A DNA stretch of 64,000 nt from Phycisphaerae bacterium (GTDB taxonomy: Bacteria; Planctomycetota; Phycisphaerae; Sedimentisphaerales; Anaerobacaceae), in contig JAQTLP010000006.1 of the NCBI GenBank assembly GCA_028714855.1, positions 124,001 through 188,000 of the forward strand, in the 5' to 3' direction. The translations under genes were made by a program, and so were the position numbers. The notes under the pieces are model-generated. The model saw only the letters and a program-made list of their open reading frames with translations, did not search any database and was not told where the DNA came from. How positions within the stretch are numbered: the stretch's first letter is position 1; each line of letters starts with the position of its first letter. This document shows positions 13,928-31,650 of this stretch, piece by piece.

Positions 13928-13944
13928 CCCGTTTTCCCAATGCG

Positions 13945-14914: not shown

Positions 14915-14915
14915 A

Positions 14916-14924: not shown

Positions 14925-14932
14925 ATACTCTT

Positions 14933-14979
14933 AAAAAGGGCTGACCAACTCTCGGCCCTCGCCCAGGGCTGGTCAGCCC
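14933..14979 (-). terminator. Strong hairpin/U-tract after the major pseudopilin
   Basis: On the minus strand a perfect 10-bp stem, GGGCTGACCA (14938-14947 as plus) with TGGTCAGCCC (14970-14979), encloses a secondary stem (GCCC/GGGC) and is followed by five T (14933-14937). It lies 30 nt downstream of the major pseudopilin stop. It probably terminates or attenuates so that the major pseudopilin is made in excess over the rest of the operon. Confidence 0.8.
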
Positions 14980-15008
14980 GGTTATCTGTCCCTCAACGAT
15001 TCCGATTG

Positions 15009-15455
15009 TTACAGATTAACATGGTTCGGGTCATCGCTATCATCAGCCTGGAAAAGCCCTATATTGGCACCGGTAGTAACAAGGTTCCAGCCGTGGCTGT
15101 CATCTCCTGCCGTTCCATCCTCATCAATAGTGTTCAATTCATTGAAAGGATTAGCAGGAATCTTCTGCATATAAGGCCCATAGGCGCCGGCCGCATCAGC
15201 AGCGCCATCGACATCAGTTCGACCGGTTAAAGCAGCTGCAACGGCGGCGGTACCTGCGCCAGGCAGGGCGCCATTGTGCTGAGCCTTATACAGCTCGATT
15301 TGTCCGCGCATCGTTTGAAGGTTGCTGAGCAATGCACTCTCTTTAGCGTCCTCGCTCGCGTCCGTAAACTGAGGAATCACAATGGCCGCAAGAATACCAA
15401 GAATGACTACAACAATCAGAATTTCCACTAATGTAAAACCGCTTTTCGCTTTCAT
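15009..15455 (-). CDS. gspG: Major pseudopilin (GspG-like)
   Basis: 148 residues with a canonical prepilin start, MKAKSG/FTLVEILIVVVILGILAAI (Gly -1, Phe +1, Glu +5). The GspG-like body includes KIPANPFNELNT, similar to the conserved P-x-N-P-W/F region near the C-terminus. It should be the main pseudopilus subunit after prepilin peptidase processing. It is the first gene of the long secretion operon, with AAAGGG upstream of the ATG, its own promoter about 255 nt away and a strong hairpin behind it. The tail is acidic (QADDSDDPNHVNL). Confidence 0.92.
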   Translation of the reverse strand: MKAKSGFTLVEILIVVVILGILAAIVIPQFTDASEDAKESALLSNLQTMRGQIELYKAQHNGALPGAGTAAVAAALTGRTDVDGAADAAGAYGPYMQKIPANPFNELNTIDEDGTAGDDSHGWNLVTTGANIGLFQADDSDDPNHVNL

Positions 15456-15799
15456 CTTTTATCCCTTTCTCAAAATAGAAATTTCACTTTTTTCATTCAA
15501 ACTATCGTCTTAATCAAAGCAGCACTTGACCACACTTAACCTTCTCTTGATATCGTTAACCCCCTCCATAAACAAGAAATGTCAAAAATCCCCCCAAAAT
15601 ACTTCTAAAAATCTCCTTCCGATTCTTAATTAACAATAAGACTTACCGCTCACGTCCTAAAACATTTTAGTTTGCCGCGTACAAAACTATATGACTGTGT
15701 CCGAATAAAAATATATAAAATAAACGCCCCAATGCCAAATTTTAAGGTATGAAATATCGGATGTGGCCGGATTCCCCCCAATGCTGCCGCCCCAGCTAA
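15456..15799. other. Promoter region and long 5' leader of the secretion operon
   Basis: 344 nt of AT-rich non-coding DNA between tsaE and the major pseudopilin gene. It holds a promoter candidate at 15710-15738 and an untranslated leader of about 250 nt. I could not match the leader to a cyclic-di-GMP or other riboswitch class by eye. Confidence 0.5.
15710..15738 (-). promoter_or_regulatory. Sigma-70-like promoter for the secretion operon
   Basis: On the minus strand TTGGCA (15733-15738) lies 17 nt upstream of TATATT (15710-15715), both close to consensus. It points toward the major pseudopilin gene. It was found by eye, with no transcript data. Confidence 0.45.
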
Positions 15800-16246
15800 C
15801 TAACAACTGATATAATCAGGCATATTTTCGATGTGTATTTCTCTCTTGCTCTTCCCCGCGTGAGAAAGCTCGACCCGAATGTAATCTATGTTCTTCAGCG
15901 CAGATTCGATTTTATCAGCCCATTCAATCAGAACTGCCGACCCCGGCTGGCAGTAATCATCGAAACCCAGCATCTCGAATTCAGAAATAGATTCCAGCCG
16001 GTAAGCGTCTATATGATAGATATCCAGCCGGCCCTTATATTCATTGATTATAACAAACGTCGGGCTGGTAACTTTTTTACTTTCCGCCGCCCCCGCGCCG
16101 GACGCAATCCCTTTGATAAGATGTGTCTTGCCGCTGCCCAGCGCCCCGCACAAAGCTATAACCTCTCCCCCTTTTAACTGCGAGCCGACCTTTCTGCCAA
16201 GCTCTATCGTCTCCTCCGGCGAATTCGTTATTACATCGATAGTCAT
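15800..16246 (-). CDS. tsaE: TsaE, tRNA threonylcarbamoyladenosine biosynthesis ATPase
   Basis: 148 residues of the TsaE P-loop family, with Walker A GALGSGKTH at 34-42 and the family segment TSPTFVIINEYKGRLDIYHIDAYRL, then ADKIE near the end. TsaE works with TsaB and TsaD to transfer the threonylcarbamoyl group onto A37 of ANN-decoding tRNAs. It ends a minus-strand operon with argH and thiL. The TsaC domain for the first step is encoded at 32156. Confidence 0.95.
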   Translation of the reverse strand: MTIDVITNSPEETIELGRKVGSQLKGGEVIALCGALGSGKTHLIKGIASGAGAAESKKVTSPTFVIINEYKGRLDIYHIDAYRLESISEFEMLGFDDYCQPGSAVLIEWADKIESALKNIDYIRVELSHAGKSKREIHIENMPDYISC

Positions 16247-16273
16247 CTTAAATCATAAATCGAAAATAATAAA

Positions 16274-17191
16274 TCACTTCAGGTGGTCGTACCCCTTCGC
16301 TTCCAAATCTCTAATCTGCCCGTCCGGCATTTTTATCTGCATTTTTTTAGTGTCGGTGATTGTTCCAATTTGCGTAATCGCCGTCGTCCCGCCCCACTGC
16401 TTCAGTAGTTTCCGGTATTCTCCTTCAGAAAGAGTAAAGAGCAGCTCGAAATCTTCCCCGTCATTCAGCGCGGAATTCAACGGCTCCTTGCCTTTTTTCG
16501 CTTCATCCGATATCGGAATCTGCTCCGCGTTTATAATGGCCCCCACTCCGCTCTGCCGGCAAATCCGGTTCAAATCGCTGCTCAGCCCGTCGCTTATATC
16601 AATCATCGAATTTACCGCCGCCTTTTTGGTTATCTCCAGCGCCTCTTTGACCCTTGGCTCGAACTCCAGATGTTTTTTAACGCCTGCCCCGCCCAGCGTC
16701 CCCGTAACGCAAATCACGTCCGCGAATTTCGCGCCCGACCGCTTTACAGGTTTGCCGCCTCCCGGCTTGCTGAGCATCGCAACATTTATTGCCAGCGCCT
16801 CCTTCCCCTTCCAGCTCGTGATGTCCCCGCCTACAAGCTCGCAACCAAATTTCCCGCCCGCCAGCACTATCCCGCTGTGTAGCTGCTTTAATTCTTCCTC
16901 GCCGAAACCTCTCGGCAGCGCAACAGAAACAACCGCAGCGACAGGAATTGTCGCCATCGCCGCGCAATCGCTTAAGCTCACCGCCATCGCTTTATACCCG
17001 ACCTGCTTTAGAGTTGTTTTCTCCAGCTCGAAGTGCACCCCGTCCAGCAGCATATCCGTGGTAACAAAAACCGACTCCTCGCTCCATCGGATTTGGGCCA
17101 TATCGTCCCCAATCCCTATCGGAAAATCTGCCGCCGCCAGCTTGCTTTGACTGGCAAACCACGCGGTTATCTCATCTTCCCTGCCGTTCAT
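16274..17191 (-). CDS. thiL: Thiamine-monophosphate kinase ThiL
   Basis: 305 residues of the AIR-synthase/PurM-like ThiL family, with GIGDDMAQI (Mg/ATP-binding acidic motif), [24 protein letters not shown] and [12 protein letters not shown]. It phosphorylates thiamine monophosphate to the diphosphate cofactor. Its ATG overlaps the argH stop by 4 nt and tsaE follows 27 nt later, so the three genes are cotranscribed. Confidence 0.95.
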
Positions 17192-18730: not shown

Positions 18731-21700
18731 CTATTGGTGTTTAACCACGAGCCCTATAATCATCTGACGGTTTATAGAACTGGAGTAAGTCGCGCTTGGT
18801 GTCTCGTTAGCGCCCGTAGCTGATTTATGGCCTGTTACACCGGTAACAGTTCCGCCCATTGTCTGGTCGTTGCCTTCGGTGAAGCCGTTGTTGAGCGTGT
18901 ATGAGCCGGAATTGCCGCAGGTGGCGCCGAGAATAACCATATCACCGCTGCTTGTCGCAAGTGAAGAGGTAGTAACCGGATTACTCGTGCTTCCACCAGT
19001 ACCGGTTGCTCCGGTAGATGTCGTCTGGTTGACATTTGAGAAAAATGCACTGGAGTATCCGGCGCTACCCGGTGCGGTGCCGCTCCATGTAGGAGTAAAC
19101 GTGCTGCTGCTCGCTGCAGCTACGTCTGTCTCCTTAAGAATAAATATCGCGGCATACGCATAACCGCTGGCGGCGTTGTAGTTATATTCAAGCACCTTGG
19201 TCATTGACTGACCGCCATATGTTACAGCGCTGAGATTCATAGTACTTGTGGACTCGGCGTGTGCGATGAATATCAAAGCACGGTTGGAACCCGATTCCTT
19301 TGTATGAGATGTTCCAGTTCCCCACGAACCCAGGAGACTGACCGGACTACCGCCTCCAGCTGCGGTGGTAAAGCTCCACACCGTTCCTGTGGTCGTGCCG
19401 TAGTCGTTTTTCTCATCGATGCGCCAGTAATAGGTCGTGCTGGCGGTCATTGTTCCTGTATCATAGGTTGTGCCTGTCTGGTTGCCCCTGAAGGTGCCGG
19501 GACTTGAGGTTCCGAAGTACACATCGTGCGAGGTCGCCCCTGACCCGGCTGTCCAGCTAAGGTCGGTCGTAACGCCGACGCTTGTTGCGCCGTTGGATGG
19601 CGACGGATTGCTTGCCTGTCCGGGCGCAGACCCACCTCCTGAGCCGCCGGCCTGGACAACGAAGCCGAGAAGTGCCTGGCGGTTAGTAGAAGTTGAGTGC
19701 GTTACGCTCGGTGTTTCAGATGCGCCTGTTGCGGGTTTGTGTCCGCCCATTCCATCGAAACTGGATACTCCAAGGTCAACACCTTTTGTAAAACCATTAT
19801 TTGCTGTATACGTTCCTGTTTCAGTACAGGTACCGCCCTCAATGACCATATCACCGCTGCTGGTAGCCAATGCGGAGGTTGTTATGGTCCCGGTATTCGA
19901 TACGCCGTTAGTTGCATAAGCTCCGACAAGGTCTGCCTGGTCGACGCCGCCAAGAAATACGCTTGTTATCGAAGTCGAAGTTGGCGAGCCGCCCCAGGAT
20001 GCGCTGATGGTGCTGCTGGTTGCGGCGTTGACGCCGGCTTCATTAAGGATAAATGCCCCGACGTATGCGCGGGTTTGCCAGCTGTAGGACTGGACTCTAT
20101 CTGTGATTTTCGTCATCGTTTGTCCGCCATAAGTTACAGTAGACAGGGTAGGATTTCTCCATGAACTGCCCTCAGCGTGCGCAATCACGATGAGTGCACG
20201 GTTACTGCCCGACTCTTTGGTATGAGATGTGCCGTTTACCCATGAGCCGAGGAGTTCAATGCCTTCGCCGGCTGGGTCGGTAGTCGCGGACATAGTGCTC
20301 GACCAGCCCGTCACATTGGGGGTGGCAGCACTGTCGCGCGCTCTGGCCCTGAACGAATACTGGGTACTCGCCGTCAGGCCTGAGGCAACGTATGTCGAGC
20401 TGCTTTGCCAGCCGCTGCTCTTGCTGCCGTCATTTGTGCATTCGAAGTAATATTGCACCGGCGGACTGGTGGCATCGGTGGCGGTCGTTGCGGTCATTGT
20501 GATTGTGCTTGAGCCCGTTGCCGTCGGGAATGAAGACCATGTCATCGGGTCAGGCGTCGGTGGTGTTGTATCCTGCACCGGCGGATCGGTGGTCGCATAT
20601 TGCGTACTTGACCAGCCGTTCACGTTTGGAGTAGCAGCACTGTCGCGTGCCTGGACCCTGAATGAGTACTGAGTATTCGGTGTCAGACCAGAAGCCGTAT
20701 AAGATGCACTCGATTGCCAGCTGCTGCTCTTGCTGCCGTCATTGGTGCATTCGAAGTAATACTGCACCGGCGGGCTGTCGGCATCCGTGGCGGTCGTTGC
20801 GGTCATCGCGATTGTGGTCTGTCCGGTTGCCTCCGGGAATGAAGACCAGGTCATCGGATCAGGCGTCGGTGGAGTAGTATCTGCTGTGCCGATAGTGCCA
20901 ACAAAAGTGTTCATACTGCTCGCAGCCAAAGTATTAGTACTGCCGACAGAGCCTCTGTTAGCCATATTAGAGGAACTTGTTGTTTCATACTTTGTATAAC
21001 TGCTCACAGTACCGCCAGACACTGAAAACGTCACGCTCTGGGAAGAGGAGTTCTGGTTTATAGCGACAATAACAACAGTGCTGCCGCTTTTATACGCAGT
21101 TACATAAACATTAGATTGCGGGCTGGCTGTCGCATCTACCCTGACGTATCCCGGCCGGACGAATTTAGCGAAATGGCTCATAACGTAACCGCGTTTGGTG
21201 ATATTTCCGCTTTCGTCGATTGGGCCGTAGCTTCTTCTTATATACCACCATATGTATGCACTCATGTTTTGAGTCATACAATTATGTATTTCCCTGCCTG
21301 TTGCAAGTGCGCCTGACCAGGTAGTATCATTCACGAGATGCTCGGTCATCCAATATTCTTTCCCTGAATAGGTGCCGCTTCCTCCGTAAATATGGATACC
21401 TACTATGTCACACTGCGATGAAGATGCTACAGTGTTCATATAACTTGAATTAAAACCGGTTGTTTCAGGAGCAAGTACCCGGGTTGGAATTACTGATGCA
21501 TTATTATTAAGGAAAGTTTGCATTTGTGATGCAGTCCATCCGCACGAATCGTAATCCGGCAAATAATCTGGTTCGTTCTGAACAGAAATGGCATATAGTG
21601 ATGCTCCGTTTGACGACATGTAATTAGCAAAATCCCTTAAATAATTGGCAAAAGCACTGTATGAACTTGTACTCAGTTGACCTCCGACGACATTATTGTT

Positions 21701-22039
21701 AGTTTTCATAGATGGCGGGGGCGACCATGGTGATGCCATTATAATCGCTCCGTGATTTGCGGCTCTTTGAGCAGTAGGGACTACATCGGCCCAGTCGTCT
21801 TCGTAAGGGGGAACCTCGACACGCAAAATGCTAAAGCCGATCTGTCCGTCACCGTTGCCAAAAGCCTTGTCTGCCTGGGCAGCAGTCAAATCGTCAATCC
21901 ATCTGGGGAAATTCATACCGCCATAGCCCCTCATAGTCTGCCTCGTAGTGTCTAAATTGATGTTCGCGGTCCCCGCCTCCGCCGTTTGGCTTAGAAGTAA
22001 CATCAGCGCAATGATTACTGTTAAATATGTCTTTTTCAT
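18731..22039 (-). CDS. Secreted GH30 family (xylanase-type) glycoside hydrolase with FN3 and duplicated C-terminal modules
   Basis: 1102 residues. A signal peptide (1 to about 22) precedes a GH30 catalytic barrel (about 25-320) close to subfamily 8 glucuronoxylanases. The acid/base is E156 in SVQNEPDY and the nucleophile is E233 in YWMTEHL; SPWSPPPSMKTN is typical. A beta side-domain reaches about 385. Two near-identical FN3 repeats follow (about 386-590), then a module of about 200 residues (starting LLGSWVNGTSHTKESGSNRA), a third FN3 and a second copy of that module at the C-terminus. ATG 22039 follows AAGGAG. It probably releases xylan oligomers outside the cell. The modules could bind carbohydrate or anchor the enzyme; I do not recognise them. 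Confidence 0.92.
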   Translation of the reverse strand: MKKTYLTVIIALMLLLSQTAEAGTANINLDTTRQTMRGYGGMNFPRWIDDLTAAQADKAFGNGDGQIGFSILRVEVPPYEDDWADVVPTAQRAANHGAIIMASPWSPPPSMKTNNNVVGGQLSTSSYSAFANYLRDFANYMSSNGASLYAISVQNEPDYLPDYDSCGWTASQMQTFLNNNASVIPTRVLAPETTGFNSSYMNTVASSSQCDIVGIHIYGGSGTYSGKEYWMTEHLVNDTTWSGALATGREIHNCMTQNMSAYIWWYIRRSYGPIDESGNITKRGYVMSHFAKFVRPGYVRVDATASPQSNVYVTAYKSGSTVVIVAINQNSSSQSVTFSVSGGTVSSYTKYETTSSSNMANRGSVGSTNTLAASSMNTFVGTIGTADTTPPTPDPMTWSSFPEATGQTTIAMTATTATDADSPPVQYYFECTNDGSKSSSWQSSASYTASGLTPNTQYSFRVQARDSAATPNVNGWSSTQYATTDPPVQDTTPPTPDPMTWSSFPTATGSSTITMTATTATDATSPPVQYYFECTNDGSKSSGWQSSSTYVASGLTASTQYSFRARARDSAATPNVTGWSSTMSATTDPAGEGIELLGSWVNGTSHTKESGSNRALIVIAHAEGSSWRNPTLSTVTYGGQTMTKITDRVQSYSWQTRAYVGAFILNEAGVNAATSSTISASWGGSPTSTSITSVFLGGVDQADLVGAYATNGVSNTGTITTSALATSSGDMVIEGGTCTETGTYTANNGFTKGVDLGVSSFDGMGGHKPATGASETPSVTHSTSTNRQALLGFVVQAGGSGGGSAPGQASNPSPSNGATSVGVTTDLSWTAGSGATSHDVYFGTSSPGTFRGNQTGTTYDTGTMTASTTYYWRIDEKNDYGTTTGTVWSFTTAAGGGSPVSLLGSWGTGTSHTKESGSNRALIFIAHAESTSTMNLSAVTYGGQSMTKVLEYNYNAASGYAYAAIFILKETDVAAASSSTFTPTWSGTAPGSAGYSSAFFSNVNQTTSTGATGTGGSTSNPVTTSSLATSSGDMVILGATCGNSGSYTLNNGFTEGNDQTMGGTVTGVTGHKSATGANETPSATYSSSINRQMIIGLVVKHQ

Positions 22040-22131
22040 TTTTTTCTCCTTATAATTGTGTTTCTCCCGTCTTCTCGCCGGCGCGTCGTTTTTTGTGATA
22101 TGTACCACTGAATCCGACTGTGCACCGGCAT
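22036..22131 (-). CDS. Leader ORF translationally coupled to the GH30 gene
   Basis: 31-codon ORF (MPVHSRIQWYISQKTTRR..., very basic, ending IIRRKK). It has a TAGGAG site just before its ATG, and its TGA overlaps the GH30 ATG as ATGA. It could couple or attenuate translation of the enzyme gene. The product shows no known attenuation motif such as runs of one amino acid. Chance is possible given the short length. Confidence 0.4.
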   Translation of the reverse strand: MPVHSRIQWYISQKTTRRREDGRNTIIRRKK

Positions 22132-22508
22132 ATTCTCCTATATGCACTTGATTTGTTTGTCTGACACCTCCTTAGCTCCCGAACAACCCCGGCTCCAAAA
22201 GCGATTATAAAAAGCCTTTAAGAACAACGTTGTCGACCAAATGCCCGACGTATATATCAAATACGAAAGAGGCATGACCCCTTAAACACAAGACCTTGGA
22301 GTTTTTGTCGATGAATTGTCCCCCTGTTATTCCCGCAAACAACCCCTTTTCCCTTTGTGGTCTTGCCTCTGTGTATAGCCATGGCAGTTATAAAACTTTT
22401 TTTCCTCTTTCCGTCAAGAAAAAAAATGGAAATAAAAGCAAGAAAATCTTGCCCGTTTTAACTTAACTTTTTGCTTTTTAGCGGTATTATGATAAGCCGT
22501 AAAGACTT
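22132..22508. other. Intergenic region between GH30 and a divergent small gene
   Basis: About 375 nt without a supported gene. On the minus strand a near-perfect Shine-Dalgarno (AAGGAGGTG, about 22169-22177) has no start codon at usable distance. The part next to 22509 is AT-rich with a possible TATGAT -10 element near 22489. No RNA gene was recognised. Confidence 0.4.
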
Positions 22509-22764: not shown

Positions 22765-22989
22765 TAACCCCAAAACGTTTAGCCCCTCGTAGCGCAGTTT
22801 ACCTCGCCATCCTTTTGGCGGGCGGAGATCCCGGAATGCCGTTATCAGGGACCCAGTCTTTCAATTTCCTAATTCACTCCGCCTCACCGGCAACCTGTAC
22901 TAAATTTCCTTTTTCTCCCATCCACTCATCGCCTCATCTACTCATTCTCTACCTGCCTGATTGGTCCCTGAAATTCTTAACATTTTCTG

Positions 22990-23074
22990 ACATTTTGTCT
23001 CACTTTCACGTACATTTGTCACACTTTTCCGTACATTTGTACCAATTTCGTACACATTTATACCAATTTCTACC
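22990..23074. repeat. Tandem degenerate 21-22 bp repeats at the left of the island
   Basis: Four units of the form ACATTTnTnnCAnTTTnnnGT start at 22990, 23012, 23033 and 23054, a period of two helical turns. Their core TTTGTCnCACTTT resembles the reverse complement of AAATGGGACAAA, which recurs further right. Such spacing is typical of multi-site protein binding, for example transposase end sites or iterons. Confidence 0.65.
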
Positions 23075-23093
23075 ACTTTTTATTTTACCCAAT

Positions 23094-23128
23094 TGTAAAT
23101 TAACCGACTAAATGGGATATTTGGCTGG
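23094..23128 (+). repeat. 35-bp direct repeat, copy 1
   Basis: Begins TGTAAATTAACCGACTAAAT and contains CTAAATGGGATATTTGG. It matches copy 2 (23227-23261) at 33 of 35 positions; both are followed five bases later by GGGAAT. It is part of the island's left repeat region. Confidence 0.8.
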
Positions 23129-23226
23129 AAGACGGGAATGGCGGGGAAAGGGCGGGAAGGCGTGGGTTTGCGGCCCAAAAAAACGGTTTTAAGGCAATTT
23201 TTTAGGGAAGAAATTCGCGATTCAAA

Positions 23227-23261
23227 TGTAAACTAACCGACTAAATGGGATATTTGGCCGG
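23227..23261 (+). repeat. 35-bp direct repeat, copy 2
   Basis: Second copy, 133 bp from copy 1. The two differences are both T/C transitions. The shared core CTAAATGGGAT is close to the AAATGGGACAA core at 23361 and 31400. Confidence 0.8.
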
Positions 23262-23386
23262 TGGGTGGGAATACTCTGGATTCGACGGGAAAAAGTGGGA
23301 TTAAACCTCTGAAAAGCGGGTTTTTGGGGCATCCAAAGGGACAAATCAAACAACTGTTCTAAATGGGACAAAACGCCATTTTGGCA

Positions 23387-23410
23387 AAAAAGTTACAAGA
23401 AATGAGACAA
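23387..23410 (+). repeat. Left copy of the island's 24-nt inverted repeat
   Basis: AAAAAGTTACAAGAAATG followed by AGACAA. The reverse complement of 31396-31419 is identical except for one base (GGGACAA instead of GAGACAA). A related core (AAATGGGACAA) lies 39 bp upstream at 23361-23371. Confidence 0.85.
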
Positions 23411-23729
23411 AAACAGAAGCGATTTGCAAAACGTTTAAACTACCATCAAATCATTTATAACTGCATTTTAAGGCGTTTAAAGTAAATAGGAATTACGCTT
23501 AACTGGGTTTGAAAAACATCTAACAAAGTTGTTCAAAAATCATCTAACATTGCGTTTTTGAGCTAAAAATAGGGGGTAAAATTTGACGGTTTTTAGAGGG
23601 CGTGAGACTTTTAGGAAAAAAGTCAAGAGCTATTTTTAAGCTAAAAATGGGGGTGGCGAAAAAATCTGCAAAAATTCTCGGAATTTGTGAAAAAATTTTG
23701 TTATTAGCCGTGCTTATGGATTTTAAAAT
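23411..23729. other. AT-rich non-coding stretch left of the repressor gene
   Basis: It holds short direct repeats: AGCTAAAAATRGGGGGT near 23560 and 23638, and CATCTAACA near 23516 and 23541. It also has a small palindrome, ATTTTTAAGCTAAAAAT, near 23630-23648. There is no supported ORF. The palindrome is downstream of the repressor gene on the minus strand and could act in termination or as a binding site. Confidence 0.45.
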
Positions 23730-24167
23730 CTATCCCCTTTTTAGAACGCTTACTATAGCGGTATATTCGGCTTTTAGATGAGATAAACTGCGTTCATTCT
23801 GGGCCGCAGCCTCTTTGTTTTCTTCTCCTCGGAATCGTGCTGCTAAATCAAAAGACAAGTCTTTGTCCTCTAATTGTTTGATTCTTTCCCCCAATTCACG
23901 TAAATACTTTTCTGCAGCGGCACTTAGAACCTTTACGCTCGGCGAATGAACCCCAGTTATTAGCCAGTGCAAGTCAACATCTAAAATTAAGGCCAGCTTT
24001 TGAATGGCCGGAACCGGTGGAAAGGCTTTGGAGTTTTCATAACGAGAGATTTGAGTCGAATCGCTCAGGCCGAGCTTACGGGCCAGGTCGTTTCTCGTCA
24101 AACCTCTTTCCTCGCGGACCTGCCGCAATCTGTCAGAAAAATTTTGTATTTTTTGCTTTTTTGTCAA
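23730..24167 (-). CDS. XRE-family (cI-like) transcriptional repressor
   Basis: 145 residues. An N-terminal helix-turn-helix (about 10-65: LRQVREERGLTRNDLARKLGLSDSTQISRYE) is followed by a helical C-terminal part (about 80-145). It lacks a LexA-like peptidase domain, so RecA-triggered self-cleavage is not expected. The reading frame begins with TTG at 24167, with AAGG six nt upstream; no upstream ATG is in frame. It is divergent from the early genes, the usual arrangement for an element's lysogeny switch. Confidence 0.88.
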   Translation of the reverse strand: MTKKQKIQNFSDRLRQVREERGLTRNDLARKLGLSDSTQISRYENSKAFPPVPAIQKLALILDVDLHWLITGVHSPSVKVLSAAAEKYLRELGERIKQLEDKDLSFDLAARFRGEENKEAAAQNERSLSHLKAEYTAIVSVLKRG

Positions 24168-24250
24168 AATTAACCTTGTATCATTGAGGAAAAATCATAT
24201 AATCAGTCGATATAGTGATTGTTACTCATAAAAAGTTTTGACGTTTTATT
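24168..24250 (+). promoter_or_regulatory. Divergent promoter/operator region of the island
   Basis: TTGTAT (24176-24181), 16 nt, then TATAAT (24198-24203) form a strong sigma-70-type promoter toward the small early genes. The inverted half-sites AATCA (24201-24205) and TGATT (24216-24220) overlap the -10 region and are a candidate operator for the XRE protein encoded on the other strand. Confidence 0.65.
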
Positions 24251-24442
24251 ATGATAATTGTTAACGAAAAACCTATTCGCCTAACCAACAAAAAAGCCAT
24301 TCGGCTCGTAAAACTTCGGGCATTACACGAAGGCCGAACTGCCACCAACGCCGCGACTCAGACTATCATCGAGGCTTTAAGTGGCCGAGATTTTATCAAA
24401 AATGCAGACGCGGAGCAAGAGAAAAGTGGGGGCGGCCAATGA
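24251..24442 (+). CDS. Small early island protein, unknown (possible DNA-binding helix pair)
   Basis: 63 residues, basic in the middle (RLTNKKAIRLVKLRALHEGRTATNAATQTIIEAL). A short beta-like start followed by helices loosely recalls ribbon-helix-helix regulators, but I cannot assign it. It is the first gene behind the divergent promoter, and its stop overlaps the next start as ATGA. Confidence 0.6.
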   Translation: MIIVNEKPIRLTNKKAIRLVKLRALHEGRTATNAATQTIIEALSGRDFIKNADAEQEKSGGGQ

Positions 24443-24855
24443 CGGAAAACTGCTGGCTTAGTTTGGAAGAGACAGCGAAACGGCTCGGCGTCACCAAAAA
24501 AATTGCTAAGGGGCTGTGCGAAGAGGGGCAGTTACTCGGTGCGGAGAAAAAAAACGGCAAGTGGGAAATTCCGCTTAACAGCATCGTGTTATTTGAACGC
24601 CGTCGGCTCACGATGGTCCTTATTCCAAAGAAAATTTTAAAGGGAGTGAAATCACACCTGCTTGATTATCTTCATATAGTCGGCAAGGAAAGTGTCACCA
24701 TCGGAGACGAATTAATACAGAGAAAAACAGAGGCACTCCAAGACGATTTCACTCGCAATCGCATCGCTGTATTGGCAGACCAGCTTGAACGAAAGCAGAG
24801 GCAATTTGCTCAGATTTGGGAGACAGTCGAATGGCTAATAAAAATAATGGTCTGA
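24439..24855 (+). CDS. Winged-helix/excisionase-type HTH protein
   Basis: 138 residues. Positions about 5-50 (WLSLEETAKRLGVTKKIAKGLCEEGQL, then KKNGKWEIPLNSI) match the MerR/excisionase-type helix-turn-helix (HTH_17). The remainder is helical with a coiled-coil-like stretch. Possible roles are excisionase, early regulator or, less likely, a DNA-packaging recognition subunit; no terminase large subunit is nearby. It overlaps its upstream neighbour by 4 nt and its downstream neighbour by 25 nt. Confidence 0.7.
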   Translation: MTENCWLSLEETAKRLGVTKKIAKGLCEEGQLLGAEKKNGKWEIPLNSIVLFERRRLTMVLIPKKILKGVKSHLLDYLHIVGKESVTIGDELIQRKTEALQDDFTRNRIAVLADQLERKQRQFAQIWETVEWLIKIMV

Positions 24856-25073
24856 AAAAGCGGAATACGCAGACGCTGCGGCATTATGTGGAGTTTTATT
24901 TGGCCGATGTGTGCTTCGATTACAACACCTTAATCGAAGAAATTAAGGAAAATAAATTGCACCCAGGCCGGAATCATAAACCCGAAGAGCGAATAGCATT
25001 TTTACAGAAGCTTGCCGATGAGCAGGTTGATTGTATCGGGTGGGTTATAGCGGACCTGAAAAGGTTAAAATGA
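24831..25073 (+). CDS. Small island protein, unknown
   Basis: 80 residues (MANKNNGLKKRNTQTLRHYV...), helical and charged, with no recognised domain. ATG 24831 is chosen for GGGAG eight nt upstream; an earlier in-frame ATG at 24816 has no such site. It lies inside the early operon and overlaps the end of the HTH gene. Confidence 0.55.
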   Translation: MANKNNGLKKRNTQTLRHYVEFYLADVCFDYNTLIEEIKENKLHPGRNHKPEERIAFLQKLADEQVDCIGWVIADLKRLK

Positions 25074-25300
25074 TAGCAAAAATAGAGACATTTTTTTCAG
25101 CAAAAAGACCCTTGACGGCGAAGCTCGGCAAGGGTAAAAATAGCAGCGTGAAAACGAGAGACGTGGAAAACGAGAAAACATTTTGCGCTTTTAAAGACCT
25201 CGGATTGGCCCCTCCGCAAGGTTGGCCAGGTACTCTCGTACCTCACAAATCCGGGGTTTTTTTGTGCGCACGGTTAGGAGAAATATTATGCAAAGTGTGA
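25070..25300 (+). CDS. Doubtful small ORF overlapping structured RNA
   Basis: 76 codons from ATG 25070, which overlaps the preceding stop as ATGA. The reading frame runs through two strong RNA hairpins (25108-25135 and 25198-25256) and into the start of the next gene. The translation (MIAKIETFFSAKRPLTAKLG...) has no recognisable domain. The structures explain this stretch at least as well as a protein does. Confidence 0.25.
   Translation: MIAKIETFFSAKRPLTAKLGKGKNSSVKTRDVENEKTFCAFKDLGLAPPQGWPGTLVPHKSGVFLCARLGEILCKV
25108..25135 (+). other. Intergenic RNA hairpin
   Basis: ACCCTTG (25108-25114) pairs perfectly with CAAGGGT (25129-25135), followed by AAAAA. It lies 62 nt upstream of the three-way junction and may be part of the same structured leader. 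Confidence 0.5.
25198..25263 (+). terminator. Three-way-junction RNA ending in a U-tract
   Basis: The outer stem CCTCGGATT (25198-25206) with AATCCGGGG (25248-25256) has 9 pairs with one G-U. It encloses GGCC/GGCC (25207-25210 with 25224-25227) and AGGTAC-TCTC-GTACCT (25228-25243). Seven T follow (25257-25263). Topology and U-tract suggest a terminator or an RNA switch before the structural genes. The next ribosome-binding site is 12 nt on. Confidence 0.65.
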
Positions 25301-25821
25301 AAACCCAAAAGAGGACTAAGGAAGCGTTGCCGGTCGGGTCTGCTGAAGAGATACGACAGTTAGATGAGCCAACAGAAGCGGAAAAAAAGAAATTTCGAGA
25401 GGGCGTGAATATTATAATCGAATCGCTCAATCAAGAATTTGGTTTTTATATTCCGCCGTTTCAGCGAAAGCTGTATACGTATCTGTTTGCTAAAGCGGCA
25501 AACCTAACGCCGCCACCCGAAATAACCAAAGAGATTGAATCGGACAAATTCAAATCATACGAGGATTGCATAAAGAAATACAACAAACTTTTTGGCAAAC
25601 TACCTGGGATTGCCCAGGAAATTGTGCTGGCAAAATCACTTAAAGCTTTAGAGCCATTAGAGAAGGAATACGAAGAGGAGGTGGTGAGAGACAGGGCAAG
25701 AGATGAATTGATTGATTTTATCCACAATAGCGGACTGTCATACCCCGAACAGACGGATATTTATAAAGGACTTTTGGAGCAAGTGAGGAATAGTGGGTTA
25801 GTGGCGGCCGCCGCAAATTAA
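25288..25821 (+). CDS. Island protein of unknown function before the protease
   Basis: 177 residues, mostly helical and charged (about 40-165). ATG 25288 follows TAGGAG. I do not recognise a family. In tailed phages the gene before the prohead protease is often the portal, but portals are longer (about 380-500 residues) and this sequence shows none of their features. The C-terminus ends in a run of Ala (VAAAAN). Confidence 0.6.
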   Translation: MQSVKTQKRTKEALPVGSAEEIRQLDEPTEAEKKKFREGVNIIIESLNQEFGFYIPPFQRKLYTYLFAKAANLTPPPEITKEIESDKFKSYEDCIKKYNKLFGKLPGIAQEIVLAKSLKALEPLEKEYEEEVVRDRARDELIDFIHNSGLSYPEQTDIYKGLLEQVRNSGLVAAAAN

Positions 25822-25833
25822 GGAAGCAAAAAA

Positions 25834-26631
25834 ATGAGCGACAAGGAAGTCGATTTTAAGTCGTTAGTTGCAAGGATGCAAACCGGCGAGCGTGATTATA
25901 TCGCTCGAATTGAGACAAAAGGGGCTGAGTTTAAAGAGGCTCAGTCCCTTTTTGTCAAATCAATAGACGAAGCCAAGCGGCAGATTGAGGCCGTCGTTTC
26001 GACCGCTGACCTGGACCGCTACGATGAAATCATCGAGCCGGAAGCATTCCGCGAAACGCTCGGTATATATCTTAAAAACCCTATTGTTATCAGCTCTCAC
26101 CAAAATCGATTAGATACCGGCCACAGCAGTGTAGTAGGCCAGGTAATTAAAGCCTGGATTAATGCAAAAGGCCTGCACGTTATTATATGGTTTGCCGAGA
26201 CGGAGCTTGGTAATGAGTTTTGGTATCTTTATAAGAATAAATTTCAGAGGGCATTCAGCGTCGGCTTTATACCGCTGGAATGGAAGGACGAAACTAAAGA
26301 CGGACGGCGAGTGAGGATTCATATCAAAGTGGAGCTGCTCGAAATAAGCTGCGTGCCGGTCCCTGCAAACCGAAACGCCCTGAGCAAATCTAAACAGAGA
26401 AAAGCCGATTTCGTAGCCGAGAAAATCGCTCAGCGGCAGCAGCTTGAAAAGAATGCTGAGGATTATGCGATATTGACTTTTGGTGAGGACGAATACAACA
26501 AGTTTATGACCGGCGACGGACTCGATGCGCTCGAGCCGGATGATGCCGAGGCCGAATTTGACGAAACGGAATTTACCGGCGAAACGGAGTTGGGTTTTGA
26601 GCCGGATTATAGTTCGTATTTTGAGAATTAA
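25834..26631 (+). CDS. HK97-family prohead protease
   Basis: 265 residues of the caudoviral prohead serine protease family (herpesvirus-assemblin-like fold). Catalytic His is H89 in ISSHQNR and Ser is S142 in AFSVGF. The family closing motif ELLEISCVPVPAN (about 167-179) is intact. It matures capsids by cleaving the scaffold or N-terminal delta domain of the shell protein. The acidic C-terminus (about 215-265) could be scaffold-like. It lies just upstream of the capsid gene, the normal order. Confidence 0.92.
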   Translation: MSDKEVDFKSLVARMQTGERDYIARIETKGAEFKEAQSLFVKSIDEAKRQIEAVVSTADLDRYDEIIEPEAFRETLGIYLKNPIVISSHQNRLDTGHSSVVGQVIKAWINAKGLHVIIWFAETELGNEFWYLYKNKFQRAFSVGFIPLEWKDETKDGRRVRIHIKVELLEISCVPVPANRNALSKSKQRKADFVAEKIAQRQQLEKNAEDYAILTFGEDEYNKFMTGDGLDALEPDDAEAEFDETEFTGETELGFEPDYSSYFEN

Positions 26632-26837
26632 AAATTATGACAGATATGCGAGAAATGTTTTTCCGCCGGCCAGCCGCGAGCTGCGGAAGCTACCTTACAT
26701 ATCTTTCGCGGTGCGTAATTGACTGTAGTTTTCAATTCAGTCGGCGGGCGGGCTAAGTCCCACGGCTCGCCTGCTATTTTTCACGTGGGACGTGGGAACG
26801 TGGTAACAATGAAACTATAAATTGAGAGGTTTTATCT
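26632..26837. other. Protease-capsid intergenic segment with hairpin
   Basis: GCGGGCG (26744-26750) pairs with CGCCTGC (26768-26774, one G-U) and is followed by TATTTTT. The direct repeat ACGTGGGACGTGGGAACGTGG follows near 26783. A 39-codon ORF (26638-26757) lacks a ribosome-binding site and is not called. Confidence 0.45.
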
Positions 26838-28028
26838 ATGAAAACGTATGCGACCGCCGAAAAAGTGGCGGAAGGTTTTAAGGCCGCGAGCGAGCGAATA
26901 AGTTCTATCGAGAAGGAATCGCAGGTCTGCTTCCAGGAAACGAAAGAGGCGTTAGGGAGTCTCCAAAAGCAGCTCAGGCTTTATGCCCATTCGATTCTCG
27001 ATAAGAGTATGCAGGCCGGTGAATACCAGGGCTTCTGGCGAAACGATGAACAGGCCAAAGAGTTCGGCTCGCTGGTGCTGGCACTTGCCGGAAGACAATG
27101 CAAGGATATGGGCACAATTGAAAACCCGCTCGGCGGGGCAGTTGTACCCACTGAATTAAGCCGAGTGATGATTCAAAAGCTCGGCCAGTACGGGAAATTC
27201 CGCCGCAATAGCCTGGTTGTTCAAATGGGCAGCGGCAATCAGAAGGTCCCGCGTGTCACTACGGACTTGACGATTTACTGTCCTGACCAGGGCGGGGAAA
27301 TCCAAAAGAGTGACGTCAAGGCCGATATGGTCGGATTAAACACAAGAAAATTCGCCTGTCTGACCGTCATAAACCGCGAGCTTGACGAGGATTCTATCAT
27401 CGGCCTGGGCGAGATTGTCGGCCTCTCTATTACCCGCTCGATGGCGAAAAGAGAGGATGAGGTCGGCTTTATGGGTGACGGCACGTCGGAGTATTTCGGA
27501 ATGCTCGGCATCATCGGTGCGATGTTAAAAATTGCAACTGACCCGTCTGATATTCCTGGCCTTATCATCGGCAGCGGCAACACCTACGCTGAATTGACGC
27601 TCGATGATTTTACCAACGTCGTCGGTCTCTTGCCGAGTGAAGCAGACGACGGTGCAGGGTGGTTTATGAACAAAAAGTTTTATTACGGCACTGTTTATAA
27701 ACTGGCCAGGGCAGCCGGTGTTGCGAACATCTTTGAGATTTTGTCTAACCAGAAGGGCCGTTACCTTATGGGCTATCCGGTCGAGTTTATCCACTGTATG
27801 CCGTATGCGGCAGCCAACAGCCAGATTGTCGCCATACTCGGCGATCTAAAACTCGGTGCCTACCTGGGTGAGCGAAGGATGCTGGAGATTGCCCGCAGCG
27901 ATGAAGTGCTTTTCGGCAATGACCAAATCGCAATCAGAGGCACAGAGCGCATCGACGTTGCAGCTCACGGCGTTGGCGATGCAACCGAGCCAGGCTCGAT
28001 TGTCGCTCTGGCTACTGCTGCCAGTTAA
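26838..28028 (+). CDS. HK97-fold major capsid protein
   Basis: 396 residues. The N-terminal 70 or so are helical (KVAEGFKAASERISSIEKESQ), like a delta/scaffold domain that the protease may remove. The HK97 core follows: GGAVVPTELSRVMIQKL, KVPRVTTDLT, REDEVGFMGDGTSEYFGMLG and, near the end, VFFG-like YLGERRMLEIARSDEVLFGNDQIAIRGTERID. It forms the icosahedral shell. AGAGG lies before the ATG. An encapsulin role is possible in principle, but the dedicated protease argues for a virus-type capsid. Confidence 0.93.
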   Translation: MKTYATAEKVAEGFKAASERISSIEKESQVCFQETKEALGSLQKQLRLYAHSILDKSMQAGEYQGFWRNDEQAKEFGSLVLALAGRQCKDMGTIENPLGGAVVPTELSRVMIQKLGQYGKFRRNSLVVQMGSGNQKVPRVTTDLTIYCPDQGGEIQKSDVKADMVGLNTRKFACLTVINRELDEDSIIGLGEIVGLSITRSMAKREDEVGFMGDGTSEYFGMLGIIGAMLKIATDPSDIPGLIIGSGNTYAELTLDDFTNVVGLLPSEADDGAGWFMNKKFYYGTVYKLARAAGVANIFEILSNQKGRYLMGYPVEFIHCMPYAAANSQIVAILGDLKLGAYLGERRMLEIARSDEVLFGNDQIAIRGTERIDVAAHGVGDATEPGSIVALATAAS

Positions 28029-28114
28029 GCATCTTTGGTTTTTCAGAACAGAAATTTTTTACAGAAAAGATGTCTGAAACTTGTTTTTAACAACATAAAT
28101 TGGAGTCTAAAAAA

Positions 28115-28564
28115 ATGATAGAGGTTCAAGATACCAAACGGGTAATTATGCTCAGGCCCCAGCTTAAAAACAACGGGGCTTTTGAGAATAATACCTACGT
28201 GGATTGTGCCGGTTGGGGACATCTGCGAGTCGAGTTTATTCTCGGCGATACCGATGTTGCGGTTGGCTCAGGCGATGCAGCAACGCCGCCAAAACTTGAG
28301 GAATGCGATACCGAGGGCGGTTCGTATTCGGATATAACCGATGCTGAGCTTGCTGCCGTACTCGCAGCGAATGATGACAATAAGGCTAAGGCAATCGACT
28401 TGTCTTTAACGCATTCGCATAAGCGATTTGTGCGGGTAAACGCTCCAACGGCTGATAACGGCGTTACTGGATGCAATCTCTGTATTATCGCAACACTGTC
28501 CAAACCAAACATTGGTCCAAAGGATGCAGACGGCCAGGGATTGGCCGAGTTGGTTGTGGTGTGA
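28115..28564 (+). CDS. Small head-associated protein, unknown
   Basis: 149 residues, beta-rich (VDCAGWGHLRVEFILGDTDVAVGS, later KRFVRVNAPTADNGVTGCNLCIIATL). Its pattern recalls the small proteins often encoded next to capsid genes in tailed phages. They may be decoration or neck proteins, but no function is established here. ATG 28115 follows GGAG; the frame is open further upstream from a TTG. Confidence 0.65.
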   Translation: MIEVQDTKRVIMLRPQLKNNGAFENNTYVDCAGWGHLRVEFILGDTDVAVGSGDAATPPKLEECDTEGGSYSDITDAELAAVLAANDDNKAKAIDLSLTHSHKRFVRVNAPTADNGVTGCNLCIIATLSKPNIGPKDADGQGLAELVVV

Positions 28565-28578
28565 TTTGTTTACGGCGG

Positions 28579-28661
28579 CCAGGCCAGCGGGATGTATCGG
28601 TGGCCTGGCTGTTTGAACCCACATAGCTGTAATCAGGGCGGAGATTCGGGTTACCGCCCTG
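28579..28661 (+). other. Two perfect RNA hairpins between head and tail genes
   Basis: CCAGGCCA (28579-28586) with TGGCCTGG (28601-28608), then CAGGGCGG (28634-28641) with CCGCCCTG (28654-28661). Both stems are 8 bp without mismatch. The first is followed by only three T, so they may slow or end transcription, or stabilise mRNA ends. Confidence 0.6.
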
Positions 28662-28684
28662 GTTGCAGCGTTAAAGAGTGAAAA

Positions 28685-30358
28685 ATGACCAAAGAAATAA
28701 ACATACACGTTAAGACTACAGGGACACCCCAGACAAAGCAGGACTTTAAAGAGCTTGGCCAGTCCGGTCAAATGGTTGGCCAGGATATTGCTGCAGGGCA
28801 AAAACAGGCCGGAGCTGCTACAGAGGAAAGCACAAAAAAAATATCGGGAATGGGGCGGATATTAGAGAACGTTGCTACGCAGGCTAAGGCTTACATTGTA
28901 GCTTTTATTGGCTGGAAAGCTGTACAGGAAGTACTCAATTTTATAATTGAAAAGCTTGAGCGCATCGCACGGCTTCAAAATGAGGTTTACGAAAAATCAC
29001 TTACCTTTTCCGATATTGGCCAGCGCATAGAATTTCAAACCGGCACTACCGGCCAGCAGCAATACTGGACAGAGCAGGCCCTGAAAATTCAAAAAGCCGG
29101 AGCGTTGTCAAATCCTGCGGTTGCACAGCAGATGATGATTTCCGCCGATATTGCTTTTGCTAAACAGGGCGGCATTAAGAACCCGCAAGTTTTAAGTATG
29201 CTCACAGAGTTTTCGCCCTTTTTTGGTGCTGCCGGATTAGGGCCGGATGAAGTTTCCAAAGTATTTGAATTTGCCGGGACAGCGGGAATCGCACCGACAA
29301 CCGGAGCTTGGAAACAGTATTTTTCACAGCTACAGGCAGGGTTTACGTCAAGCAAAGCAACAAACTTCGGTGAATTTATGACCGGCCTGCAAAAAGGCGG
29401 GACCGCATATATGGCAATGGGCGGGACATTGCCGGAAGCAATAAGTGCATTCAGTGGAGCTCGCAGCGTGATGGCAAATGAGGCCCTTGCCGCTACACTT
29501 GTCGAACAAATCGCCAGATTATCAGCGGGCGGTTATGAAAAACCGCGAGCTGCTATCGAAAAAGGACTCGGCGTAAAATGGTCTCAGCTTTCAATGGACC
29601 AGCGGACGGCTGCCGTGCTGCAATATGTAGGCAGTATTCCAGGATCACAGAGAGCACAAAGGCTGACAGCCCAGGGCTTCCCTGCTGAGATGACAACACA
29701 GATAAGCAAAATGGTTACGCCGGAAGCAATGGGTGCAATGGCTGCAACCCGCGAGGCGGTATCAGCAGCAGAACCTGCCGCTGTTGACCAGCAGGCCCAG
29801 GCGTATCTGGATTCTGTACTTGGTAAATCACGTCAAACTGAGGCTGACATAGCTGCCAAACAAATGGAGGCAGGTCCGAAATTCGCCGACTGGCAAACAA
29901 GACTTAAAAAGGCCAAAGCCGAGCACGAAATTTTAGTTGCTAAAGGCCAGGACCGGATGCTGATGAGTGACATTATAGAGCCATACGTAATGGCAATGGA
30001 GGGGCTCGACAAAGACTTAACTGCTTTGATAGGTGAACTGCCGGAAGGTGAACGCAGAGAAAAAGCGATAGAGTTGCAGGGTAATATTCAAAAAACTATT
30101 ACTGCTATGCAGCCAGGGCTATGGCTTGGTTTGGGAATTCTTCCAGCATACGGAATCAGAAAGTTTTTTGAAAAAGGCGGAGCTGCCAAGCTGGGTTATA
30201 ATTTGTCGCAAAGATTTGACGCGATTGCAGCCGAAAGTGCTCCACAAACCATCAACAATGAGTTCCATTACCACCATGAACACATTACGAACTACAATCC
30301 TATGCAAGGCAGGGATGATAATAGAGGCGGCAGAGCCAAGCCGGAAGATTTACTTTAA
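28685..30358 (+). CDS. Tail tape-measure-like protein
   Basis: 557 residues. The N-terminus (MTKEINIHVKTTGTPQTKQD) and helical body resemble the start of tape-measure proteins. A hydrophobic segment lies at about 73-90 (AYIVAFIGWKAVQEVLNFII), long Ala/Gln-rich helices follow, and the polar tail has NNEFHYHHEHITNYNPMQG. It is short for the family, implying a short tail if functional. No tail tube, sheath, baseplate or portal gene accompanies it, so the assignment rests on this protein alone. Confidence 0.6.
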   Translation: MTKEINIHVKTTGTPQTKQDFKELGQSGQMVGQDIAAGQKQAGAATEESTKKISGMGRILENVATQAKAYIVAFIGWKAVQEVLNFIIEKLERIARLQNEVYEKSLTFSDIGQRIEFQTGTTGQQQYWTEQALKIQKAGALSNPAVAQQMMISADIAFAKQGGIKNPQVLSMLTEFSPFFGAAGLGPDEVSKVFEFAGTAGIAPTTGAWKQYFSQLQAGFTSSKATNFGEFMTGLQKGGTAYMAMGGTLPEAISAFSGARSVMANEALAATLVEQIARLSAGGYEKPRAAIEKGLGVKWSQLSMDQRTAAVLQYVGSIPGSQRAQRLTAQGFPAEMTTQISKMVTPEAMGAMAATREAVSAAEPAAVDQQAQAYLDSVLGKSRQTEADIAAKQMEAGPKFADWQTRLKKAKAEHEILVAKGQDRMLMSDIIEPYVMAMEGLDKDLTALIGELPEGERREKAIELQGNIQKTITAMQPGLWLGLGILPAYGIRKFFEKGGAAKLGYNLSQRFDAIAAESAPQTINNEFHYHHEHITNYNPMQGRDDNRGGRAKPEDLL

Positions 30359-30402
30359 AACGACTTTAAACAGGTTATAATTACAAGTTAACAGATAAAA
30401 AA

Positions 30403-30849
30403 ATGCCAAAAATCGCTGAAAAAAAATGTAAAAAGTGCGAGCAAGTAAAGCCTTCCTCTGATTTTTTCAGAGACAAAAATATAAAATCTGATGGCCTGAA
30501 AGCTATTTGCAAAGAGTGTTTTATGAACACCCCAGCTAAAGGCTTAGAAAATGAGAATCAAATCAACAGCGTAATACGAGAAATGGCTGAATTACAAGCC
30601 AACATAGACCACGAAAAGGCATTATGCGAAACCCGTATTTCACTGGTTAAGAAATACACAGATGAAATTATCGAACCCTCCACTTCTCACCAAACGTTTT
30701 TACAAACAATGCTTTTGACTTTCCTAAAAAAGCAGAAAATTAAAAGGTTCTCTCGCCAGTATCGTTTCGGCGTTATATCTTTTTCTCGCGGTAAACTGAG
30801 ATTACGCCTTGATGCTGACCTGGCAAAACAAATGATGGAGAAGCCGTGA
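30403..30849 (+). CDS. Zinc-ribbon island protein
   Basis: 148 residues. Two Cys pairs, CKKC at about 9-12 and CKEC at about 37-40, form a zinc ribbon. That arrangement is common in phage proteins related to HNH endonucleases, but no HNH catalytic motif is present. The rest is helical and basic. It follows the tape-measure gene by 44 nt. Function unknown. Confidence 0.65.
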   Translation: MPKIAEKKCKKCEQVKPSSDFFRDKNIKSDGLKAICKECFMNTPAKGLENENQINSVIREMAELQANIDHEKALCETRISLVKKYTDEIIEPSTSHQTFLQTMLLTFLKKQKIKRFSRQYRFGVISFSRGKLRLRLDADLAKQMMEKP

Positions 30850-31277
30850 AACTGACTATAATCAAAAACAGTTTATTAGCCGTTATTCGGGTGTTTGGGT
30901 TTTTTCTATGGTTGATTACAAGCTATATGCAGCGGCGGGTGACGCAGTTAATGGTATGCTCGCCCCTGATGAATCCTTACTTACCCAAAACCAAACCGCT
31001 TAACTGTTCCGAGCGAGAATGTGCGGTCCAGCAAATTTTAAGTATGTGGGAGAAAAAGAGTAACTGGACGGTTGCGAATGACCGGCGAAGGTTTGAGGCT
31101 ACAGAGTGGGGCCAGCAGGTAGCCAGAGATAATCCTGACCGTCATTTATACGCCGTGTTGTATCCTACCAGGAAGGAAAATTTAGCCCGCATCGCCAACG
31201 TGCTCCGAGCAATGGACGCCGAGGCATTCGCCAGGGTAATGCGGAATGCCGAGAAGATTCGATGCGACAAGCATTAG
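30846..31277 (+). CDS. Last island gene, unknown, with N-terminal hydrophobic helix
   Basis: 143 residues from a GTG start that overlaps the previous stop (GTGA), with GGAG upstream. A hydrophobic segment (about 10-27, LLAVIRVFGFFLWLITSYM) could be a membrane helix, as in some holins. The remainder is soluble and basic (FEATEWGQQVARDNPDRHLYAVLYP). No family recognised. Confidence 0.55.
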   Translation: MKLTIIKNSLLAVIRVFGFFLWLITSYMQRRVTQLMVCSPLMNPYLPKTKPLNCSERECAVQQILSMWEKKSNWTVANDRRRFEATEWGQQVARDNPDRHLYAVLYPTRKENLARIANVLRAMDAEAFARVMRNAEKIRCDKH

Positions 31278-31650
31278 TTTTACTAATATTTTAGTTGTCT
31301 AAAGTGTAGCTATATCGCCATTTTTTGGTGTTAAGATAGGCAAAATAGAGGTGGGGGTAGTCTAAGCATATCAATGATAACCAGGTGTCCAAAGCTTGTC
31401 CCATTTCTTGTAACTTTTTCCCATTTTGAAAGTTAAACTACAACAATTACACTTCTGTTAATGACCAGAAACAAGCGACCATTAACCAACAAACGCCCGA
31501 TAAAAAACCCAAAATCAGCATTTTTAACAAAAAAAACAAAGATTTTTTCTATAAACCTTGTTATTTTACCTAAATATCCTAAATTATCTATTTTAACATT
31601 GCCGATAGACTTCTTAATTGAAGGAACGACTTTTTATGGAGATTTAAGTT
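31278..31650. other. Right flank of the island, AT-rich
   Basis: 373 nt with the right inverted-repeat copy, a second TTCCCATTTT core 20 bp beyond it, and long A/T runs. It has no supported gene. Upstream of the PilZ gene the sequence contains GGAG nine nt before the ATG. Confidence 0.45.
31396..31419 (-). repeat. Right copy of the island's 24-nt inverted repeat
   Basis: On the plus strand TTGTCCCATTTCTTGTAAC followed by TTTTT. It is inverted relative to 23387-23410 with one mismatch. A second related core (CCCATTT at 31420-31426) lies 20 bp away, so at least two sites occur at this end. Confidence 0.85.

Follow-up and report, generated by a model that had tools for sequence, protein, structure and literature searches.

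A helically phased T-tract array beside a capsid island with Mu-type ends in a Phycisphaerae genome: probably two independent neighbours

Results and Discussion

The window, that is, the whole 64-kb stretch of DNA that was analysed here, presents a T-tract array and a capsid island next to each other. The array consists of ten helically phased T-tracts on the plus strand (22983..23082); it was read directly and is a type-A member of a family that the sequence model R2 recovers across the genome. The island, of 8,349 bp and with TGTA...TACA termini (23094..31442, plus strand), was delimited with the homologous islands L085, L086, L179, L210 and L211. It starts at 23094 with TGTAAATTAACCGACTAAATGGGATA, 12 bp past the last T-tract unit, its inverted matching end closes at 31442, and it separates the array from a PilZ gene. 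Upstream of the array, the alignment of A-type copies showed a flank common to other copies of this type, with degenerate CTCATCTACTCATC words (22900..22982, plus strand). Short degenerate word repeats (CTCATCTACTCATC, TGAACAATGAACTACGAAC and CAAATTCCAAATCACC-like), which in the window occupy 22840-22960, were observed beside many arrays in these genomes. Further to the left there is a GH30/XynC-like protein (18731-22147), whose C-terminal part (19360-20890) belongs to an expanded repeat or domain family, with many matches in the same genome (G000; C2:52-60 kb and C1:268-271 kb) and in the related genome G005.

The island encodes an XRE-family repressor (HTH_3/HTH_19; 23730..24167, minus strand) and, on the plus strand, an HTH_17 protein (24439..24855), an S78 prohead protease identified in the domain/PHROGs scan (25834..26631), an HK97-type major capsid protein (26838..28028), a 154-aa protein (phrog_5707; 28100..28564) that most islands keep downstream of their capsid gene, a 557-aa protein (28685..30358) with homologues in other islands that match tail tape-measure families weakly, a Mu Gam-like/endonuclease-VII-like protein (30403..30849) and a 143-aa protein conserved in homologous islands (30846..31277). 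The island has, then, its own capsid gene together with the protease. The stretch from the island end to the XRE gene contains small direct repeats, AAAAACATCTAACA and TTTTTRAGCTAAAAATRGGGG (23507-23653). The Pfam and PHROGs scans gave no integrase domain among the island ORFs and no transposase match among the island proteins, no Rep or replication initiator family was present among the proteins scanned, and portal, terminase and a tail set were not found on the island. The first-pass annotation had stated that the window lacks a transposase; this was confirmed, and the whole 98%-complete genome is also devoid of the Pfam domains PF09299 (Mu-transpos_C) and PF00665 (rve). Since these two domains are missing, the island cannot move by a MuA route of its own.

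The T-runs of the array start at 22983, 22993, 23004, 23015, 23025, 23036, 23046, 23057, 23067 and 23077, with a spacing of 10-11 bp (about 10.5 bp), and the units are, in order, TTTTCTGACA, TTTTGTCTCAC, TTTCACGTACA, TTTGTCACAC, TTTTCCGTACA, TTTGTACCAA, TTTCGTACACA, TTTATACCAA, TTTCTACCAC and TTTTTA. Four units with a 21-22 bp period had been described previously at this position. The period is real and corresponds to two 10.5-bp turns, but the number and extent of the units were wrong, and the exact TTTGTCNCACTTT occurs in the reported array only at 22994 and 23015. Only one chain of at least five T-runs at 9-12 bp spacing exists in the 64-kb window, which is this array, and when samples of 200-400 kb from this genome and related ones were dinucleotide-shuffled, chains of at least six T-runs appeared at 0-0.33 per sample.

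The array belongs to a family that is dispersed in the chromosome. The sequence TTTGTCTCACTTT occurs exactly 15 times in the 2.31-Mb genome, and model R2 recovered 30 loci at E<=0.002; it should be noted that R2 and R3 were trained on part of the copies that they recover. The alignment separated two subtypes: type A, to which the copy in the window belongs, and type B, which has GCGCAGGGGGG and AACTTGCGCGTTTGGTGCTACCC as its flanks. Type-B copies present the inverted flanks CAAATGCGCAGG / CTTGCGCGTTTG, and type-A copies such as the one in the window do not. These are discrete arrays of roughly 60-110 bp, and their strongest period was 10.0-10.75 bp in 15 of 15 copies. Their lengths differ by increments of about 10 and 21 bp; a coding repeat was ruled out because 10 is not a multiple of three. 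The arrays are intergenic, with few overlaps, all of them with spurious-looking ORFs of at most 160 aa. A functional class of neighbour genes was also considered and rejected, the flanking genes being ordinary ones of metabolism and tRNA modification (MtaB, LeuA, LpxB, MenA, PanB, LarE).

A role as transcription terminators or structured RNAs, for which the U-rich, pyrimidine-rich transcript strand and the pairing of the inverted flanks in the predicted fold could speak, appears very improbable. The arrays have no preferred orientation relative to the genes on either side (tandem-same 7, tandem-opposite 9, convergent 6, divergent 8), on which ground a terminator or promoter element was rejected; the fold z-score was -0.43, and in the nine loci scanned no Rfam family was detected at the array, with only sub-threshold chance matches, so that a structured RNA was rejected as well.

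When other genomes were compared, the sequence of the units was found to change from genome to genome while the phasing was the same: units are TTTCTTGCAA in G005 and TTTTTGCGCA in G024, which belong to other genera, and TTTGGCTAAG in G001, of the same genus, where the CAAAYRCGCARG flanks of type-B copies are kept. When 17 arrays of five genomes were aligned, almost all invariant columns fell in T-tracts, about 10 positions apart; a recurrent A precedes the T-tract, and the columns between tracts are variable. The first-pass annotation had proposed the conservation of units and spacing as a test, and for the T-array the answer is divided: the spacing is conserved and the unit sequence is not. 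A generic model found 28 arrays in G000, 31 in G005 and 15 in G001, against small numbers in the remaining genomes of the order; this contrast is indicative only, because the model was trained on those same three genomes. As arrays are abundant in only 3 of the 159 genomes searched, the trait is lineage-restricted.

The positions of the arrays are also partly shared. An orthologous neighbour gene in common with an array locus of G000 was found at 12 of 24 array loci of G005, compared mostly as 4-kb pieces, and at 4 of 11 of G001, versus 8 of 110 comparison pieces (1/20 plus 7/90, one of the seven itself adjoining an array) that were drawn from G001, G003 and G013 and not from random G005 loci. 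Fisher tests gave p = 4e-6 for G005 and p = 9e-6 for G005 and G001 pooled with the PilZ cases excluded. Side and strand of the array relative to the orthologous gene agreed in 18 of the 22 cases compared. For the array of the window, the corresponding site lies upstream of PilZ, where G005 has an array and G001 a degenerate array with inverted flanks. At the G001 locus (L090), T-arrays with differing unit sequences flank PilZ on both sides (12778-12851 and about 13480-13600). In another genome (L095, G023:C26, 4846-5755) the order ADSL, 76-aa membrane protein, PilZ and Sua5 is the same, with no island and with PilZ inverted.

In addition, a calculation with wedge parameters predicted a strong curvature for the arrays, with a mean bend of 128 degrees per ~73 bp compared with 47 in shuffles, a bend of 102 being the 99.9th percentile of the window. 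The positional conservation, the agreement in side and strand and the high predicted curvature therefore favour a DNA-shape element. The array would act as a strongly bent segment for a nucleoid protein or another wrapping protein, and a sequence-specific operator or an RNA is disfavoured against such a role. Species have in common the phasing and, in part, the place of the arrays in the chromosome and their orientation, while the sequence between tracts turns over and is homogenised within each genome. With moderate confidence we infer that the arrays are curved-DNA chromosomal elements, the copies, their phasing and their partly shared positions being observed, the curvature predicted, and a protein partner and a function presumed.

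A different explanation is that the arrays are miniature mobile repeats of MITE, BOX or REPIN type, that is, selfish sequences with CAAAYRCGCARG inverted flanks, moved by a transposase in trans and with no function for the host. The about 30 dispersed copies, the inverted flanks of type B, the strongly variable copy number among genomes and the presence of Y1 transposase genes in G000, G001 and G005 are all consistent with it. Against it, the positions and orientations are orthologous across genera, the sequence is replaced and yet the phasing is kept, type-A copies like that of the window have no inverted flanks, and the Y1 genes are adjoined by neither arrays nor inverted flanks. We consider this explanation rather unlikely, although a selfish repeat that is inherited vertically is a serious rival of the DNA-shape element. 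A RAYT/REPIN system in particular was rejected: the Y1 genes exist, but the repeats around them are absent.

Regarding the island, its left end is formed by the terminal repeat TGTAAATTAACCGACT-AAATGGGATA, with a site at +17 (23094..23119, plus strand), and by a GGGAAT box at +41 (23134, plus strand). A second, internal copy of this signature lies 133 bp inside the first (23227..23252, plus strand), and a scan with the AAATGRGAYA motif located two additional plus-strand sites, AAATGGGACA (23361..23370) and the weaker AAATGAGACA (23400..23409). At the other end, on the minus strand, a pair of sites (31397..31426), whose CCCATTT cores at 31400 and 31420 are separated by exactly 20 bp, is followed by the right terminus (31427..31442), which on the inverted strand reads TGTAGTTTAACTTTCA. 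The sites that had been reported on the right side of the array, AAATGGGATA at 23110 and 23243, AAATGGGACA at 23361 and AAATGAGACA at 23400, are all present; with an inverted copy at 31397-31406, absent from that earlier description, they amount to 5 matches of AAATGRGAYA in the 64-kb window, where 0.65 are expected, and 5 or more were obtained in 1 of 100 shuffles. As for the two 35-bp repeats reported there, they are the best-matching stretch within a 101-nt direct repeat of 71% identity, whose copies lie 133 bp apart. The left-end signature is duplicated in three islands: that of the window (23094/23227, 133 bp), L085 (3753/3847, 94 bp) and L211 (1016/1136, 120 bp).

The same arrangement of the ends, with the diverged motifs AAATGGCGTAAA and AAATGGCGGAAA, was observed in the islands of L085 (from G057, a genome placed in the same family as that of the window) and of G005, and it is also present in G063, G156 and G113 (L210, L211). 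From the homologues, a left rule (site at +17, GGGA at +41) and a right rule (two CCA..T cores separated by exactly 20 bp, followed by 12 bases and TACA) could be derived. L210 passes the search pattern and fits the left rule only in a looser, GGGG-shifted form, and at the right end of L169 AACA replaces TACA. Inverted multi-site ends at fixed distances from TG...CA termini are found in the window, L085, L086, L179, L210 and L211, and in the partial elements L169, L181 and L209; the positions of the sites and a recognisable A..TGG core are conserved, which is the outcome that the test of conservation gave for the island ends. The left signature had 25 matches in 2.58 Mb of sampled DNA (stretches around matches plus spaced samples, with places sampled under several ids counted again), and all of them are in capsid islands or MuA contigs. 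Eight island ends have the right signature; its only two matches in 2.43 Mb of other DNA are in the MuA contigs L188 and L192.

Target duplications are the weakest part of the transposon case. The candidate 5-bp duplication of the window, CCAAT (23089..23093, without strand), has as partner ACAAT at 31443-31447, a 4/5 match. The G005 island has a perfect 5/5 duplication (ATAGT), L085 shows one only with a shifted terminus, and at the canonical ends there is none in L085, L179, L210 and L211; the duplication is clean in 1 of the 6 islands checked.

The first-pass annotation had united the TTTGTC units and the AAATGGGAYA sites in a single bidirectional array of transposase-end type. The units do face the sites, and TTTTGTCTCACTT and AAATGAGACAAAA form an imperfect 13-nt inverted repeat. 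Nevertheless, copies of the T-array family exist elsewhere in the genome without AAATGGGAYA sites, and the homologous islands carry the end sites without T-arrays, for which the T-array was also rejected as a part of the island. A single array is hardly credible in view of these results. The comparison with transposase ends is supported for the right half, whose end signature is found, in the DNA examined, only in capsid islands and MuA contigs, and is not supported for the TTTGTC units. The other suggestion, a replication origin with iterons, could appeal to the direct repeats 133 bp apart and to the AT-rich stretches that adjoin the XRE gene. It was discarded as highly improbable: the island proteins have no Rep-type match, the motif recurs in inverted orientation at the opposite island end, with fixed distances to the termini, and conserved termini with paired inverted ends suit a transposon end better.

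Related elements that do carry a transposase were found. In the viral contig L166/L186, the protease and the capsid are 74% and 63% identical to those of the window. Two modules of ~8.6 kb with capsid, MuA and MuB lie there in direct tandem with abutting ends (121-17056). The first module, bounded by left ends, encodes XRE, protease, capsid, a 150-aa protein, MuA and MuB, and the second protease, capsid, MuA and MuB. The MuA proteins have the domains PF02914, PF09299 and PF09039, and MuB-like AAA genes are alongside. Of the scanned ORFs in the first, complete module, none was recognised as a portal, terminase or tail gene. In L212-L214, MuA is located upstream of protease and capsid. Other tandem islands were observed in L211 (968-1016 and 8183-8225), where exactly 5 bp (CACGC) separate the right end of one from the left end that follows, and TTTGGATTTCGCTCTACA is repeated just outside the second right end. 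A helper element for the island of the window was not found in its own genome. In G005, a Mu-like prophage with MuA and MuB genes, the MuB with an N-terminal HTH, was observed (L182, G005:C46, 8763-11814); it was rejected as an island helper in that genome, since no A..TGG end sites were seen in the 20 kb read.

The HTH_17 protein of the window shares 40% identity, over only 40 aa, with the N-terminal domain of a MuA transposase, and its gene occupies the slot held by MuA in L213/L214. It is possible that this gene is a MuA remnant. This resemblance, the lack of the searched transposase domains in the genome and the conservation of a tape-measure-like gene with other tail genes absent, which could mean reductive decay, would agree with the chance loss of MuA, MuB, portal, terminase and tail genes from a Mu-like prophage in decay. 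Such an origin is a possibility of some weight, though not the one that we favour. The homologous islands are alike in their compact size (7.2-8.8 kb between recognised ends), across several genera their genes follow a similar order (repressor, protease, capsid, 150-aa, ~550-aa, Gam-like), and both ends are intact. Furthermore, the capsid differences between the window and L085 reach 0.55 at the third codon position and 0.21-0.28 at positions 1-2, and the protease and the 150-aa gene also differ mainly at third positions; this concentration indicates that the capsid is under purifying selection and that the three genes were selected for. Purifying selection on capsid and protease, like the other features mentioned, argues against decay. 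We consider a transposable, capsid-bearing satellite more probable than a decayed prophage, the present data fitting either a satellite or a slow decay.

From 23094 onwards, the AAATGGGAYA sites form the left end of this capsid island of 8.35 kb, whose multi-site inverted ends of TG...CA type are such as Mu-family transposases recognise. Most likely, the island is a non-autonomous transposable satellite derived from an element bearing MuA and MuB; it would be moved in trans, and may be active at present. Its landing between the T-array and the PilZ gene, 12 bp past the former, would be due to chance.

Phage Mu and Mu-like phages (MuA/MuB, attL/attR) share with the island several sites per end, asymmetric ends, TG...CA termini, a divergent repressor and a Gam-like gene, and the sister elements of the island encode MuA and MuB. 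Unlike Mu, the island measures 8.3 kb, neither MuA/MuB nor portal, terminase or a tail set could be found in it, and its ends are characterized by the A..TGG motif, a 16-nt terminal spacer and a right pair spaced by 20 bp. Capsid-forming PICIs and other satellites are also small chromosomal islands with their own capsid gene and repressor, and they would likewise depend on a helper; the island differs from them in having Mu-type transposon ends instead of an att site, with no integrase found. Phage-satellite families (P4-like, PICI, PLE, PICMI) have been reviewed, with MITEs treated as transposase-dependent hitchers (PMC11389934). Like MITEs, the island is non-autonomous, with ends recognisable by a transposase in trans, but it has 8 kb and conserved phage head genes, whereas MITEs have about 300 nt and no genes.

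With respect to the T-arrays, prokaryotic A/T-tracts in 10-11 bp phase have been associated with curvature and with nucleoid proteins (Tong and Mrazek 2014, PMC3940949). The arrays share this phasing of A/T-tracts, and differ in being discrete and countable, with species-specific units at orthologous sites. They have in common with other repeats a modular, intergenic nature and variable internal units. BOX and REP/REPIN families are modular intergenic repeats in which the number of internal units varies. The unit of the T-arrays is, in contrast to those families, a T-tract of 10-11 bp in helical phase, and the positions are partly conserved across genera despite the replaced sequence. Full-text searches of the open-access literature gave no paper naming such arrays or such islands.

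Conclusions

Taken together, the array and the island are probably two neighbouring and independent features: a curved-DNA element and a capsid island that is, most likely, a non-autonomous transposable satellite. A broader joint reading is less secure, and we put it forward as a speculation with the balance of probability clearly against it. In its first part, the arrays would be a new class of chromosomal landmark, with ~30 orthologous sites per genome. Equally tentatively, selection would keep the 10.5-bp phasing while the units are replaced in concert in each species, as if they were co-evolving with a wrapping protein. The remaining part, held with the same reserve, is that a lineage of transposons of ~8.6 kb would encode a phage capsid and protease together with MuA/MuB, no portal or terminase having been found in them, and would have transposase-free satellites, that of the window among them.

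Many prokaryotic genomes show helically phased A/T-tracts as a statistical property. If the landmark reading is true, arrays that are conserved in place with a rewritten sequence would give countable sites and a protein partner that can be searched for. The end signature of the islands, for its part, separates capsid islands and MuA contigs from the other DNA examined, and makes transposase-dependent capsid satellites findable in metagenomes.
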